DNA of 64,000 nucleotides from Thraustochytrium sp. TN22. Lineage: Eukaryota > Sar > Bigyra > Thraustochytrida > Thraustochytriidae. The first letter of the stretch is position 1, and each line of letters begins with the position of its first letter. The position numbers and the translations under genes were made by a program. Shown piece by piece: positions 8,426 to 64,000 of the stretch. The notes under the pieces were generated by a model. The model was not told the origin of the DNA, did not search any database, and saw only the letters and a list, made by a program, of their open reading frames with translations. The stretch spans positions 1 to 64,000 of the forward strand of contig JABLUY010000020.1 of assembly GCA_013306675.1 (NCBI GenBank), given 5' to 3'.

Positions 8426-8494
8426 GTCGGCCAGCGGGCGGGCGGGCGGGCGGGAGCGAGGGCGGGCAGCGGGGCGAGGCGCGCGCGCGCCACC
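8187..8494. promoter_or_regulatory. Putative bidirectional promoter (TPR / DUF4833-like genes)
   Basis: This 308-bp interval lies between two divergent ATGs. It contains an ATCAATCAATCG stretch with a T-run near 8330-8355, flanked by CGG-trinucleotide runs at about 8393-8423. No TATA box is obvious. The ATG at 8495 sits in a CACCATGG context, a strong Kozak match. Confidence 0.4.
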
Positions 8495-9634
8495 ATGGGC
8501 AAGCGCGACGCCTGGGGCGTGGAGGACGTGCGTGTGATGCTGGGGCTGGGCGACGGCGTGGGCGTGCCGCTGCCGAGGCCGCACGCGGGCGCGCGCGCCG
8601 AGCAGGTGGCGGCGTTCCGCGAGGCCGTGGAGGCCGCCGCGGCGAGCCCGCAGACCTTTCTGGCGCCGCAGGCGCAGCGCGGGCCGTGGGAGGTGGACCT
8701 GCGCAGGCCGCAGGACCGCGAGGCCGCGGTCAGGCTCACGGCGCTGGTCAAGGGCGTGTCCAAGTGGAAGCCCGTGCTCGTGCCGAGCCGCACGAACGAG
8801 CTCACGTTCTACGCAAACTTCTTCAGTCACCTGGCCGAGATAGCCTGCGAGCACTTTAGCGACGAGCGGAACCTGGAGGCCTTTTACGAGGAGGATCTTG
8901 AGGCGGGCGCCGGCGCAGGCGCGGGCCGCCCGGCGGTAGAGATGGCAGAGATCAAGTCGCCGCCGCCGCCGCCGCCACCGCCGTCAGAGCCCAGCAACGG
9001 CGCCTCTGTCGCTGCGGCGGCCTCGGCGGCCGTGCACGCGGTCGTGCACGCCGCCGAGGAGGTGGCTGAGCAGGTTGCGGAGGGCGTGGCGGCCGCCTCC
9101 GGGGGAGGCGAAACGCCGCCGCTGGCGGCGCGCTTCTCGGCGGAGAACGCGCCACAGGGCGCACGCGCGTCCGAGGAGCAGCTGCGGGCATTCTTGAGCA
9201 AGAAGGTGCTCTTTTACGTGTCGAAGAGCGGCAACAACAATGTGGTGGTGTATGAGGCGAACCTGGCCGCGGACGGTTGCTCGCTGGACGCCGCCGACCC
9301 GGTCAAGGTGTACTGGATCCTGTATGCGCGCTCGCCCTGCGTGGAGGAGGGCCTCACGATGTTGGAGCGCAACACCGCGTATGGGTCGACCTGCGTGCCG
9401 ATCAAGGAGCGGCCGGGTCACTACCTCATGACTCTGGCAGCGGTCGAGTCGCGGCCGGTCGAGATTTGGGTTGACGAGAATGGCCAGCTGCACGCACAGG
9501 CCCAGCTAGACAACCGGCCGGATGAACTGCTCCACGTGGACGTTCAGTTCACCACAAACTGGCTCGGGGTGCCCAAGGTAGACTACATTGATTTGGCCGG
9601 CAGTGCTGCCGGCGAGCGTCTCGTGAATGCGTAG
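8495..9634 (+). CDS. DUF4833-like protein
   Basis: A 379-aa protein with a strong start context (CACCATGGGC). The N-terminal half has a helical segment (about residues 85-130, WKPVLVPSRTNELTFYANFF) and then a Pro/Ala-rich linker of low complexity. The C-terminal half (about 230-370) resembles the DUF4833 family, a predicted beta-sandwich found in bacteria and protists. It carries LFYVSKSGNNNVVVYEAN, VKVYWILYARSP and a closing VDYIDLAG. The function of that family is not known to me. There is no signal peptide or membrane segment, so it is probably cytosolic. The family match is from memory of its pattern and should be confirmed by a profile search. Confidence 0.7.
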   Translation: MGKRDAWGVEDVRVMLGLGDGVGVPLPRPHAGARAEQVAAFREAVEAAAASPQTFLAPQAQRGPWEVDLRRPQDREAAVRLTALVKGVSKWKPVLVPSRTNELTFYANFFSHLAEIACEHFSDERNLEAFYEEDLEAGAGAGAGRPAVEMAEIKSPPPPPPPPSEPSNGASVAAAASAAVHAVVHAAEEVAEQVAEGVAAASGGGETPPLAARFSAENAPQGARASEEQLRAFLSKKVLFYVSKSGNNNVVVYEANLAADGCSLDAADPVKVYWILYARSPCVEEGLTMLERNTAYGSTCVPIKERPGHYLMTLAAVESRPVEIWVDENGQLHAQAQLDNRPDELLHVDVQFTTNWLGVPKVDYIDLAGSAAGERLVNA

Positions 9635-58706: not shown

Positions 58707-60119
58707 TCACAGCTTGGATACTACAGGCTTTGGGCCCGGCACCAGGTTGGCATCGTCGCCAGCCTCGGCCTTCTCGCCCTCGCGCGGCACCGGGCGCATC
58801 TTGCGGCGGTACACCTCGTCAAGCGCGCCGTAGGCGATGCCGTAGACGCCCACGGAGGTCTGCGCGTGCGCGTAGAGGCGGCCTGTCTCCGGCACGAGAA
58901 TGCCACACTTGGCGAGCAGCTCTGCGGCCGTCCATGCCGAGGCGGCGGGCTGGCCGCGGTCGCCGTCGCGATGAAAGGGCTCAAGCTCGAGCGTGCGGAA
59001 GTCGTTGTCGGCGCACTCCGCCGTAAGGGCCCGCATGACGCGCTGCATGAGGTCCAGGCGCGGGCGCGGCGCGATGCGGTCCGCAGGGAGCATCATGCGT
59101 TTGAAGAAGGTCTCAGCCGACCATATGAACTGCTGCATGCTGCTCACGATCCACACCGCACTCTCGCCCTCGTAGCCAAAGCGGTGGCGCGCCAGATGCC
59201 GGCAGACGCGGTCCACCATGACGGCCGCCAGCGTCTTCTGGCCGTTTTTGGATAGCTTGGACACGTGGTTGATGTGACGCAGCGCAAGCCGCTCCGCCAC
59301 GTCGCGCACGATGCGCTCGTTCTCGAGCTCGTCCTCGCCCGTCTCTTCGAAGGCGAGCAGCACGTTCAGGCAGCGCTCCAGCTCGCCAGCGCGCATCTTG
59401 AGGTCGGCCAGGCGCAGTCCCGTGACGCCCGCGATCACCAAGCCCACGCGCCAGCCAGTGAGCAGCTTCTGGTACATGGACGACATAAAGGCCGCCGAGG
59501 CGCCCACGGCCAGGAGCCGCGTCACGGCGCCGCCCGGGAGGACGAGCGACACCACCTCGCCCGCCTGCCGTAGGCCGCCCAGGCCGGAGGCCAGCGCGCC
59601 AGAGGTGAGCCCCGAGAGACCGCCGGCGCCGGCGCCGGCGCCAGCCGCCGCCGGTGCGGCACTGCGTCCGGCGCCGAATCCCGCCCCAAAGTCCGTCATG
59701 CGCGCGTCCGAGGCCTCCCAGTGCACGCTATGCACGCCGTCCGGCACGAAGATGCGCCCTCCATCCTGCTCAATGCTTGCCCACAGCTGCTGCGCCGCGA
59801 ACTTGTACTGGAACAGCCGGTTGCGCAGCTTGATCTTGAGGATCTCGCTGAACTGGACCAGCTGTCGCTGCACGATCTCTGCCTTGGCGCGCTCCGTCAC
59901 CTGGAACCCGCGCACCGCGTCGCTCAGCATCATGTCAAACGTCGTGCGGACCAGCGCACCCTCGCCGCGGCCCGCCTGCTGCGCGCGTCTCGCCACCGCT
60001 GTCGTCGCCGCCTCGTTGGGCTGCTCGTTGTCCTCCTCCTTTTCCTCCTCCTCCTCCTCCTCCTTCAAGTGCACGACGCCGCCGCGCAACGCGCGCCGCG
60101 CCTCCTCGCCCCGCGCCAT
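58707..60119 (-). CDS. Protein with C-terminal SKL, likely peroxisomal, unknown function
   Basis: A 470-aa protein from the first ATG; the frame is open upstream to a GTG. After an acidic run (KEEEEEEEKEEDNEQ) comes a helical segment, VRTTFDMMLSDAVRGFQVTE, seen as FDMMLSDAVRGF, then QRQLVQFSEILKIKLRNRLF and FAAQQLWASIEQDGG. A Gly/Ala-rich hydrophobic middle (about 185-275) includes EVVSLVLPGGAVTRLLAVG and GWRVGLVIAGVTGLRL, which could be membrane-associated. The C-terminal half is helical (WIVSSMQQFIWSAETFFKRM). The last residues VVSKL end in a canonical PTS1, predicting import into peroxisomes. I do not recognise the family. Peroxisomal location is inferred only from the tail. Confidence 0.8.
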   Translation of the reverse strand: MARGEEARRALRGGVVHLKEEEEEEEKEEDNEQPNEAATTAVARRAQQAGRGEGALVRTTFDMMLSDAVRGFQVTERAKAEIVQRQLVQFSEILKIKLRNRLFQYKFAAQQLWASIEQDGGRIFVPDGVHSVHWEASDARMTDFGAGFGAGRSAAPAAAGAGAGAGGLSGLTSGALASGLGGLRQAGEVVSLVLPGGAVTRLLAVGASAAFMSSMYQKLLTGWRVGLVIAGVTGLRLADLKMRAGELERCLNVLLAFEETGEDELENERIVRDVAERLALRHINHVSKLSKNGQKTLAAVMVDRVCRHLARHRFGYEGESAVWIVSSMQQFIWSAETFFKRMMLPADRIAPRPRLDLMQRVMRALTAECADNDFRTLELEPFHRDGDRGQPAASAWTAAELLAKCGILVPETGRLYAHAQTSVGVYGIAYGALDEVYRRKMRPVPREGEKAEAGDDANLVPGPKPVVSKL

Positions 60120-60675
60120 GGCGCCAGTCGCGCTGCGCCGCGCCGCGCTGGGGCGGGCCGGGAGGGCCTGCGGGTTGCGCGCGCGTCGCTTCACGCGCGC
60201 GCGCTCCCGCGCGCCGCTCCTGCGCGCGGACGTCCAGAGTTGCGGTTGTGCAGTCCGCTCGTGGCAGGGGGTGGTACTGGTCCACGACTAGGGAACCCTG
60301 GACCTGGACCTGGACCTTGCCTGTGAAAATTTCAAGACCTGGAGAGAGACCTTCAACGTTTGAGAGCTCGAGCGAGCTTGATAGAGATCGAGAGCTCGAG
60401 AGACCTAGAGACCTCCAGAGACGTAGAGACGTATAGACCTAAGTAGCAAGGGACCTCGAGACCTCGAGACCTCGGCACCTCGGCACCTCGACACCTCGAC
60501 ACCTCGGCTCGGCCCTTCTGGCCGCCAGACATGGCCGCCTTCAGCCACTCGCGTCGCTCCCTTGCTTGCCATTTTAAGAAGCATGCTCAGACCGACGCGA
60601 CACCCGGCTCGTCTCGACAGCCAGGTTTGCGCACTCGTGGCGGTCAAGGTCGATCGAAGCACGATCTTTCACTAC
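60120..60675. other. Intergenic repeat-rich stretch
   Basis: Consists largely of short units: CTGGAC hexamers (60297-60317), then GAGACCT/GAGAGCT variants and ACCTCGAG or ACCTCGGC octamers up to about 60510. No coding signal is seen. Confidence 0.5.
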
Positions 60676-61362: not shown

Positions 61363-62676
61363 TCAGGCTCGGTCGACGCTGCGCCGGTGGAGCTTGAGCA
61401 CAATGTCCTCGTCGCGAAAGCCTTCGCTGAGGGTCCCGAAGGGGACGAGGTCCACAGCGTCGAGGCCCGCCTGCTCGGCGAGGGCCTGTGAGAAGAGCTG
61501 CTCCTGCACGCTAGAAGAGCTGGCTGCGGCGACCGTCCCGGGTACCTGCGCGGCAACGTCCGCTGCGCTGGCAGGGACAAATCGGACCTCAAAGCAAGAC
61601 ATGACCAGAGCATGCGGGCTGTCGCGGACCAGCGACGCAATCGTGGAGACGAGCGCGCGCGTCGTGGCGGCATCGCCCGCGTAGATGAGGTCGGAGCACA
61701 GCACGACGTCAAAGGGCCCGCTGGCTGCGATGTTCTCCGGCAACGCACAGTCCCACTCAATGCTGACGGCACGCGCCGCGCGCACGGCCTCGCCGTTGAG
61801 CTCAATCTGTTGGTTGATCCAGTCGAGCGCAGATGGCCTCTCCGAGAGCACCACCTCTCGTGCACCGACCGCAGCCGCAACGAGGCCCGGCAGCCCGAGT
61901 GCGCACCCGAGCTCCACGACGCGTCGACCCCGAACCAGGTCTGCGCGGTCGCTAATGAAGCGCGCGAGCACGCCAGCACAGTCCCAGAGCATGCGGTTCT
62001 GTTCGCCCGGCACCTCGAGCACACGCAGCGCGACACCAGACGAGATCTGCAGGCCGTCCTCCGGAATGCGTCGCAGACGCCGTCGGTTCTGCAGCGAACG
62101 CTCACGCTTCGCGAGCGCCGCCTCTCTGCGCTCCGTCTGTGCCGGCGACTCGGTGAAGAGACCCTGGACGGTGGCAGCACGGCTGCTGCTGCTGCTGCAG
62201 AGGTTGCCGCCGGCGCCCACCTCGTCGTCGCTGTCCACGCCGCCCAAGCGCGACAGCCAGGCCTCCCCTTCGTCGCTGCTGGAGCTGGCCGCATCATCCT
62301 CGTCCCCTCCGGGATCCGCGGCCGCAGCGACGTCGATATGAGCCCTCTGCGCCTCGACGGCCTCGACGGCGCCGTGCTCGTGCATCACCTTTTCGTGCGC
62401 CATGTGGCACGTCCCCGTTCGTACGCTCCGCAGGCTCTGCTGGCGAGCGCTCGCGGCTTCCACGGGCGCGCAGGTGCGGCGTGCACGAGCCTGCCTCTGC
62501 GTGCGCCCTCGGCCTCTGTGCTGCGCCTGGGACCTCGCGGCGCGCTCGCGTCCGGGTGCTTGCTTGGTGGTCTGTCTGTCTGTCTGGCTGTGACTGGCAG
62601 AGGAGAGCGCGAGCCAAGACGAGCCTCTGACGGGGAGGGCGCGCCGGGCGCAGGGCGGGGCGATGCGCCGCAACAT
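61363..62676 (-). CDS. METTL21-like (Methyltransf_16) protein methyltransferase
   Basis: A 437-aa SAM-dependent methyltransferase from an ATG. The N-terminal 35 residues (MLRRIAPPCARRALPVRGSS) look like a mitochondrial presequence. A second ATG at 62403 (MAHEKVMHEH) would remove it and give 346 aa. After an acidic, Ser-rich linker, the catalytic part starts near residue 215: ISSGVALRVLEVPGEQ, NRMLWDCAGVLARF, then SAM motif I VVELGCALGLPGLVAAAVG (about 250-268). A VLSERP acidic strand follows, and FDVVLCSDLIYAGD (about 318-330) corresponds to the 'DxxY' post-motif of lysine methyltransferases. Family members methylate lysines on chaperones, elongation factors or metabolic enzymes. The target here is unknown. 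Confidence 0.85.
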   Translation of the reverse strand: MLRRIAPPCARRALPVRGSSWLALSSASHSQTDRQTTKQAPGRERAARSQAQHRGRGRTQRQARARRTCAPVEAASARQQSLRSVRTGTCHMAHEKVMHEHGAVEAVEAQRAHIDVAAAADPGGDEDDAASSSSDEGEAWLSRLGGVDSDDEVGAGGNLCSSSSSRAATVQGLFTESPAQTERREAALAKRERSLQNRRRLRRIPEDGLQISSGVALRVLEVPGEQNRMLWDCAGVLARFISDRADLVRGRRVVELGCALGLPGLVAAAVGAREVVLSERPSALDWINQQIELNGEAVRAARAVSIEWDCALPENIAASGPFDVVLCSDLIYAGDAATTRALVSTIASLVRDSPHALVMSCFEVRFVPASAADVAAQVPGTVAAASSSSVQEQLFSQALAEQAGLDAVDLVPFGTLSEGFRDEDIVLKLHRRSVDRA

Positions 62677-62955: not shown

Positions 62956-64000
62956 CTAAGGCTGAGGCGAGAGGTTGGAGAGCTGCTTGCGCAGGCGCGA
63001 GGGGCCTGGCGAGGGGCTCTGCGTGGGCGGGGAGTACGGCTGCGGCGAGCGCTCCAGCGCCGCGTTCTTGTCCGGGACCGGGAGGTCGTCGGCATCCATG
63101 CCGCGGAAGTAGTCGGCCGAGTCAAAGCGATGAACGCGAGGCGACTGGGGCGACTGCAAAATCTTGCGTGCCGCGGCCGTGGCTGCACCCTGGTCGGCGC
63201 GAAAGGTGACGGCTTTGGCGCCCAGCGAGCTGGCGGCGGACGGCGGGGCAACGTCCTCGTTGGTTTTGGACTCGATGGATGAGGTGCGTGCCACCATGGC
63301 CGAGGCGCGCGCCTTGAGTTTGGCGGCAGAGGCCTCCTGCTTGCGTTGCATGCGCTGGTGCAGCAAGTGCTGGGCAATGCTTGCGCCGGGCTCCGCGTGC
63401 GCCTGCGCGGGTGGCTCGTCCACGCTCTGGCGCGCCTCAGGTTCACGGGCCGCGGCGAAGGCGGCGTCCATCGCAGCGGCGCCTGCAGCCAGACCGGGCG
63501 TCGCAGTCTTGGCCTGCGCCTGGGCTACAACGTCCTCTTCGGCGGTGAGGCCAGCGAAGAAATCGGCGCTGTCGAACCGGCGCTGCTGGCGGATTGAGCG
63601 GCCCACCACGACACGGCGCGCCTCGTCCTTGATGAGCTGCGCCGCGGCGCGCGGCGAGGCGCCCTTGACGTCTGCCAGCGCCTCAGAATCGGACTTGACG
63701 CCGCGGAAGAAGTCTGCGCTGTCGAAGCGCGTGCCCCGCTTCAGCGGCGAGGTGGTGTTTGCCACGGCCTCTTCCTCCTCCTCCTCCGCCGCCGCCGCCG
63801 CCAAGCTCGCTGCCGCAGTCGCTGCCGGCCTCGCGGCCGCAGGGGAGCTCTGAAGCAAAGGCACGTCGGCCTTGACCAGCTGCTGCGCCTCGGGCTCGGG
63901 CGACCCAAGTTCTACAGCATTTTCGCCCTCCGAGCGCATAGAGTTGTTGCGCACGAGACGCGGCACCTCGGGACTCAAGCCGGCGATAACCTGGCGCGAG
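62956..64000 (-). CDS. Triple endosulfine-motif protein (partial, runs off the window)
   Basis: Open from the right edge to a TAG at 62956; the start codon lies beyond 64000. Otherwise low-complexity (Ala/Ser/Pro/Glu), it carries three copies of a conserved block: RFDSADFFRG (F codon at 63726), RFDSADFFAG (63576) and RFDSADYFRG (63126). FDSxDY/F is the core of endosulfine/ARPP19/Igo proteins, where Greatwall-type kinase phosphorylates the Ser and the protein then inhibits PP2A-B55. Known members carry one copy. Basic residues precede each block (LKRGTR, RQQRR, RVHR), as around the known site. Between them are helical segments (IAQHLLHQRMQRKQEASAAKL, seen as LLHQRMQRKQEA) and Ser-Pro sites (SPQSP, SPSPGPS) that could be CDK/MAPK targets. 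Motif assignment is strong by eye; the function of three copies is inference. Confidence 0.7.
   Translation of the reverse strand, partial: SRQVIAGLSPEVPRLVRNNSMRSEGENAVELGSPEPEAQQLVKADVPLLQSSPAAARPAATAAASLAAAAAEEEEEEAVANTTSPLKRGTRFDSADFFRGVKSDSEALADVKGASPRAAAQLIKDEARRVVVGRSIRQQRRFDSADFFAGLTAEEDVVAQAQAKTATPGLAAGAAAMDAAFAAAREPEARQSVDEPPAQAHAEPGASIAQHLLHQRMQRKQEASAAKLKARASAMVARTSSIESKTNEDVAPPSAASSLGAKAVTFRADQGAATAAARKILQSPQSPRVHRFDSADYFRGMDADDLPVPDKNAALERSPQPYSPPTQSPSPGPSRLRKQLSNLSPQP

Follow-up and report, generated by a model that had tools for sequence, protein, structure and literature searches.

A single predicted protein of 661 residues encoded by Thraustochytrium sp. TN22 carries five F-D-S-[A/G]-[D/E]-[F/Y]-F blocks, that is, five copies of the FDS[G/A][D/E][Y/F] phosphosite core of the endosulfines (ENSA/ARPP19/Igo). 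Three of these lie within the window, the 64-kb stretch of DNA that was analysed (C122:1-64000, from a genome of 37.9 Mb in 453 contigs). On the sequence evidence we lean towards an endosulfine-like protein that inhibits PP2A-B55 competitively and has five phosphosites instead of one. Endosulfines are described, in those parts of the literature that were available, as small proteins in which Greatwall phosphorylates one conserved site, the slow dephosphorylation of that site setting the release of PP2A-B55.

The gene and its five blocks

The window cuts the gene and the contig was therefore read onward, which gave a minus-strand frame at C122:62956-64941 encoding 661 aa, with its stop codon at 62956-62958 and its ATG at C122:64941. 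No ATG lies upstream of this one in the stop-to-stop frame, which has 964 codons, and the bases before it are GGCGCC. The coding frame and the blocks are listed below.

62956..64000, minus strand: part of the coding frame within the window; holds blocks 3-5, with blocks 1-2 beyond the window
C122:64705-64725, minus strand: block 1, FDSGEYF (HFDSGEYF), Ser75, preceded by ELLDHRLFEMRH
C122:64303-64323, minus strand: block 2, FDSADFF, Ser209, preceded by ILLEYSLRRARR
63706..63726, minus strand: block 3, FDSADFF, Ser408, preceded by SPLKRGTR
63556..63576, minus strand: block 4, FDSADFF, Ser458, preceded by VVVGRSIRQQRR
63106..63126, minus strand: block 5, FDSADYF, Ser608, preceded by SPQSPRVHR

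The blocks start at residues 73, 207, 406, 456 and 606 of 661, with spacings of 134, 199, 50 and 150 residues. An earlier note on this DNA had reported three motifs, spaced by about 50 and 150 residues; these correspond exactly to blocks 3 to 5, and the count of three rises to five in the whole frame, the two additional blocks lying beyond the window on the same contig. The basic upstream flanks and SP sites that it described were also found, the residue before the core phenylalanine being arginine in four of the five blocks and histidine in the remaining one, and the SP/TP dipeptides of the protein numbering 19 against 7.9 expected from composition. Its disordered scaffold was not borne out by the charge-hydropathy measure, which fell slightly on the ordered side of the boundary (0.438 vs 0.415); our guess is that the alanine content is the reason for this value.

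A PDB search with the 661-residue protein returned five weak, unrelated matches only (best E 0.053), and when a 182-residue part of it was used for a six-frame paralog search, its own gene was returned along with four matches that were weak (E 0.05 to 1.1). The downstream neighbour, at 61363-62676 of the window (minus strand), encodes a protein of the lysine methyltransferase type (PF10294, E 2.4e-17), and a 495-aa frame at 58707-60194 (minus strand) had no Pfam match at E 0.001. The divergent neighbour at L001:1908-7268 (plus strand) is a very long single frame with TPR repeats and glycosyl transferase family 41 similarity (O-GlcNAc-transferase-like). A neighbouring TCP-1/cpn60 chaperonin gene is split over the adjacent frames L001:7489-8385 and 8461-9330 (minus strand), which span profile positions 1-208 and 206-486, respectively, and this arrangement suggests a short intron.

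Relationship of the blocks to the endosulfine family

A scan of the full protein against Pfam, as proposed in the earlier note, aligned residues 59-102 (block 1) with positions 22-61 of the Endosulfine profile (PF04667, length 80) at 16.1 bits (E 0.012), a weak match below the curated cut-off of 29.8 bits and nearly equalled by the unrelated T6SS-SciN (15.0 bits, E 0.021). Block 1 alone scored 12.9 bits against PF04667, while none of blocks 2-5 (0/4) gave a Pfam match when scanned singly and the window part of the protein by itself gave no Pfam endosulfine match. A 58-residue fragment comprising block 1 with its true flanks matched Endosulfine at 13.0 bits (E 0.11), with the unrelated DUF5750 scoring higher at 13.8 bits. 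The endosulfine match was absent from all eight flank-shuffled copies of this fragment and from the one core-masked copy, a result to be read with the knowledge that HMMER drops most matches above E of about 0.1 and that the unmatched shuffles may score only slightly below the true fragment. The similarity beyond the six-residue core on which the earlier proposal had been made to depend was found weakly for block 1, below the Pfam cut-off, and not for blocks 2-5. We consider that block 1 weakly resembles the endosulfine family beyond the core, and class the protein as probably endosulfine-like in working principle and not as a member of PF04667.

In ARPP19, helix alpha3 (SDFLRKRLQK) docks on B55 with F48, L49, R52 and L53 being important, and phospho-Ser62 enters the PP2A active site aided by D61 and D64 (PMC10765524, available in part). 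Block 1 has the segment ELLDHRL ahead of its core (ELLDHRLFEMRHFDSGEY), in which L, L, two residues, R and L are placed as F48, L49, R52 and L53 are in ARPP19, at a distance shorter by one residue. Yeast Igo1 seems to share this one-residue-shorter spacing. The positions -11, -10 and -6 relative to the core phenylalanine are hydrophobic in blocks 1, 2 and 4 (3/5), a spacing that recurs at 2 of 645 other positions in the protein; since the rule was derived from block 1, the fair test comprises blocks 2-5 only, where two of the four conform. Blocks 3 and 5 lack this spacing and have prolines (of S-P sites) there instead. Inspection of the 661-residue protein by eye revealed no counterpart of the ARPP19 C-terminal crossover and tail.

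Taken with ENSA/ARPP19/Igo, block 1 is alike in its F-D-S-G-[D/E]-Y core, its basic upstream flank, the short hydrophobic segment ahead of it and the partial profile match. The protein is unlike them in that four of its five cores read FDSAD[FY]F and in that its score falls under the family cut-off, and it is neither small nor single-site, having 661 residues and five cores where ARPP19 has 112 residues and one core. A hexamer held in common with ARPP19, AKLKAR (at residue 540, in the stretch separating blocks 4 and 5), was set aside as weak because some hexamer was shared with ARPP19 in 310 of 20,000 composition shuffles. Two further readings were rejected: an FFAT motif, for which the acidic upstream tract is missing and the flanks are basic, and a beta-TrCP degron, for which DSG is present in block 1 only.

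These differences among the blocks bear on another reading, which we consider rather unlikely, in which block 1 alone is a working endosulfine module and blocks 2-5 serve the kinase as docking or decoy phosphosites, or are weak substrates of B55, and would tune the phosphorylation of block 1 without themselves inhibiting the phosphatase. Block 1 is alone in matching the endosulfine profile and alone among the five in having a glycine after the serine, as in ARPP19, and the upstream hydrophobic spacing is missing from blocks 3 and 5, all of which would fit such a division of labour. However, the core is maintained no less tightly in blocks 2-5, these four have in common a glycine two residues after the core which block 1 does not have, and the upstream spacing is present in blocks 2 and 4. 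The multisite inhibitor is our preferred reading.

No canonical endosulfine was identified when the genome was searched in six frames with PF04667, at thresholds of E 0.001 and E 10, or with an ARPP19 query. Block 1 of the present gene likewise escaped these searches, which were run with no family-positive genome as control, so that absence of a canonical endosulfine is not proven by them; they would also overlook a core interrupted by an intron, and the neighbouring chaperonin gene lies in two frames. The five-block protein is possibly the sole endosulfine-like PP2A-B55 inhibitor here. No multi-core endosulfine was found in the literature covered, most subscription papers lying outside that coverage. 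At a reach limited to close relatives, 194 stretches of viral contigs (IMG/VR) matched one of six peptide patterns and 589 stretches of prokaryotic GTDB contigs matched the peptide patterns, with none confirmed as a relative in either set.

Pathway partners and the origin of the blocks

The earlier note had proposed looking for B55 and a Greatwall/MASTL-like kinase, and the same genome encodes a B55 and a kinase of the Greatwall/MAST group. A B55 fragment used as query matched once on contig C424 (67% identity) and at two places on contig C37. The C424 protein scored 469 bits against human B55alpha and is identical to it at 11 of 12 contact residues, the exception being D340, which is replaced by E; the 12 are those named for ARPP19, FAM122A or substrate helices (PMC10765524, PMC11446282, both available in part), and of the nine contacts named for ARPP19 eight are kept. 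The two places on C37 (L047, C37:36500-41000; L048, C37:59500-64500) each match the B55 query at 56% identity and share 4,481 bases that are 100% identical in inverted orientation, which may have arisen by recent inverted duplication or as an artefact of the assembly.

With a Greatwall N-lobe as the query, 150 of 279 candidates were scored and yielded 151 kinase matches, the best of which, a kinase on contig C62, was ahead by 16 bits. Among its best 60 of 588 PDB matches the C62 kinase is an AGC kinase closest to Greatwall (5loh, 251.9 bits; next kinase CBK1, 239.4) and has an activation-segment insert. The two halves of its kinase domain match at 593-758 and 854-1000, and the 95-residue gap between them contains six S/T-P sites, counted by eye. 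By its sequence the C62 protein may be assigned to the Greatwall/MAST group, and may be Greatwall proper or of MAST, Rim15 or plant-IRE type. MAST kinases have been contrasted with the long insert of Greatwall, and the recombinant kinase domain of a worm MAST kinase is reported to phosphorylate ENSA (PMC11961639, available in part), so the exact type of the C62 kinase need not decide the matter. The blocks fit in part a possible MASTL sequence preference (PMC9217955, available in part), with a hydrophobic residue at -2 and R or H at -3 in all five, and a basic residue at -6 in three and at +5 in two.

The presence of both partners also bears on the reading that the blocks form an array of some other short linear motif, with sites for another domain, which came to resemble the endosulfine core by convergence. 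We judge this improbable. Blocks 2-5 are alike over about 10 residues only, their consensus (R-F-D-S-A-D-[FY]-F-x-G) exceeds the endosulfine core, and the Pfam match, besides falling below the cut-off, is barely above unrelated families, all as such an array would have it. It accounts less readily for a genome encoding B55 and a Greatwall/MAST-group kinase, for the flanking profile positions common to block 1 and endosulfines (matched by none of the eight copies with shuffled flanks), or for a core whose serine and preceding aspartate are PP2A-contacting residues in ARPP19 (PMC10765524, available in part).

By composition the motif is expected 2.5e-6 times in the protein, and not one of 20,000 shuffles held even a single copy. 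A degenerate DNA pattern wider than the motif matched the genome five times, each time in this gene, with no match in the reversed control. A looser pattern gave 14 genome matches, namely the same five and nine others, compared with seven in the reversed control. When the nine additional frames were read by eye none looked endosulfine-like: four lack a codon for the serine (a dynein-like frame among them), and the five that have one include a DEAD-box-helicase-like FDSGEF, a glycosyltransferase-like FDSAEW and an FDSGDF in a Tim8/13-like frame of 148 residues whose beginning is rich in Ser and Gly.

The seven-codon cores have one to three synonymous codon differences in all ten block pairs, the serine being encoded by TCG or AGC, while the flanks agree between copies at 6-10 of 60 residues. 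DNA around the cores is 61-73% identical to the reference copy over 41 nt, and blocks 2 and 4 are 75% identical over 56 nt. The silent codon divergence together with the dissimilar flanks argues for selection on the protein core and not for recent copying, and points to protein-level constraint on the cores. Recent tandem duplication of the blocks was rejected on the 61-73% DNA identity and the few agreeing flank residues, which fit old divergence or convergence. It is scarcely credible that the blocks arose by chance or as a low-complexity artefact in a GC-rich, non-genic open frame, for although the frame is 71% GC, has many Ala/Ser runs and is overlapped by other long frames, the shuffles held no motif, all five genome pattern matches fall within this one frame and the codons of the cores diverge synonymously.

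Proposed mode of action and significance

We infer phosphorylation of the five-block protein, its binding to B55, inhibition of PP2A-B55 and multivalency, as follows. The C62 Greatwall/MAST-group kinase would phosphorylate the serine of every F-D-S-[A/G]-[D/E]-[F/Y]-F core, and the phosphorylated blocks would then act as competing substrates, occupying the active site of PP2A and being processed there very slowly, in the manner of endosulfine, a substrate that inhibits through tight binding and slow dephosphorylation (PMC3949306, available in part). Blocks 1, 2 and perhaps 4 would dock on the B55 platform via the short upstream hydrophobic segment, like helix alpha3 of ARPP19. Several sites on one chain may give a higher local concentration and occupancy; alternatively, several dephosphorylations may be needed before inhibition ends, which would make release graded or delayed. 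With five sites on the chain, higher occupancy or longer inhibition would be expected. The stronger proposal is that in this lineage the endosulfine switch has been recast as a single long protein with five phosphosites, the only endosulfine of the cell, so that PP2A-B55 would be inhibited in a multivalent or counted (multi-step) manner and not by a one-site switch; it is tentative and we regard it as doubtful.

Among other inhibitors, FAM122A and other helical B55 binders likewise place a short helix on the B55 platform; FAM122A differs, by description, in that its second helix blocks the active site, seemingly constitutively and with no phosphoserine (PMC10765524, PMC11446282, both available in part). 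PP1 competitors of the CPI-17 and Inhibitor-1 type would act on a similar principle, in which a competing substrate is dephosphorylated slowly (PMC5441869, PMC3949306, both available in part), although they act on a different phosphatase and are likened here by principle, not by sequence.

A natural five-site version of an endosulfine would directly test whether the number of sites sets the sharpness or the delay of PP2A-B55 release. It would also supply a compact natural set of core variants (FDSGEYF, FDSADFF and FDSADYF), and would show the extent to which the endosulfine pathway can be remodelled.
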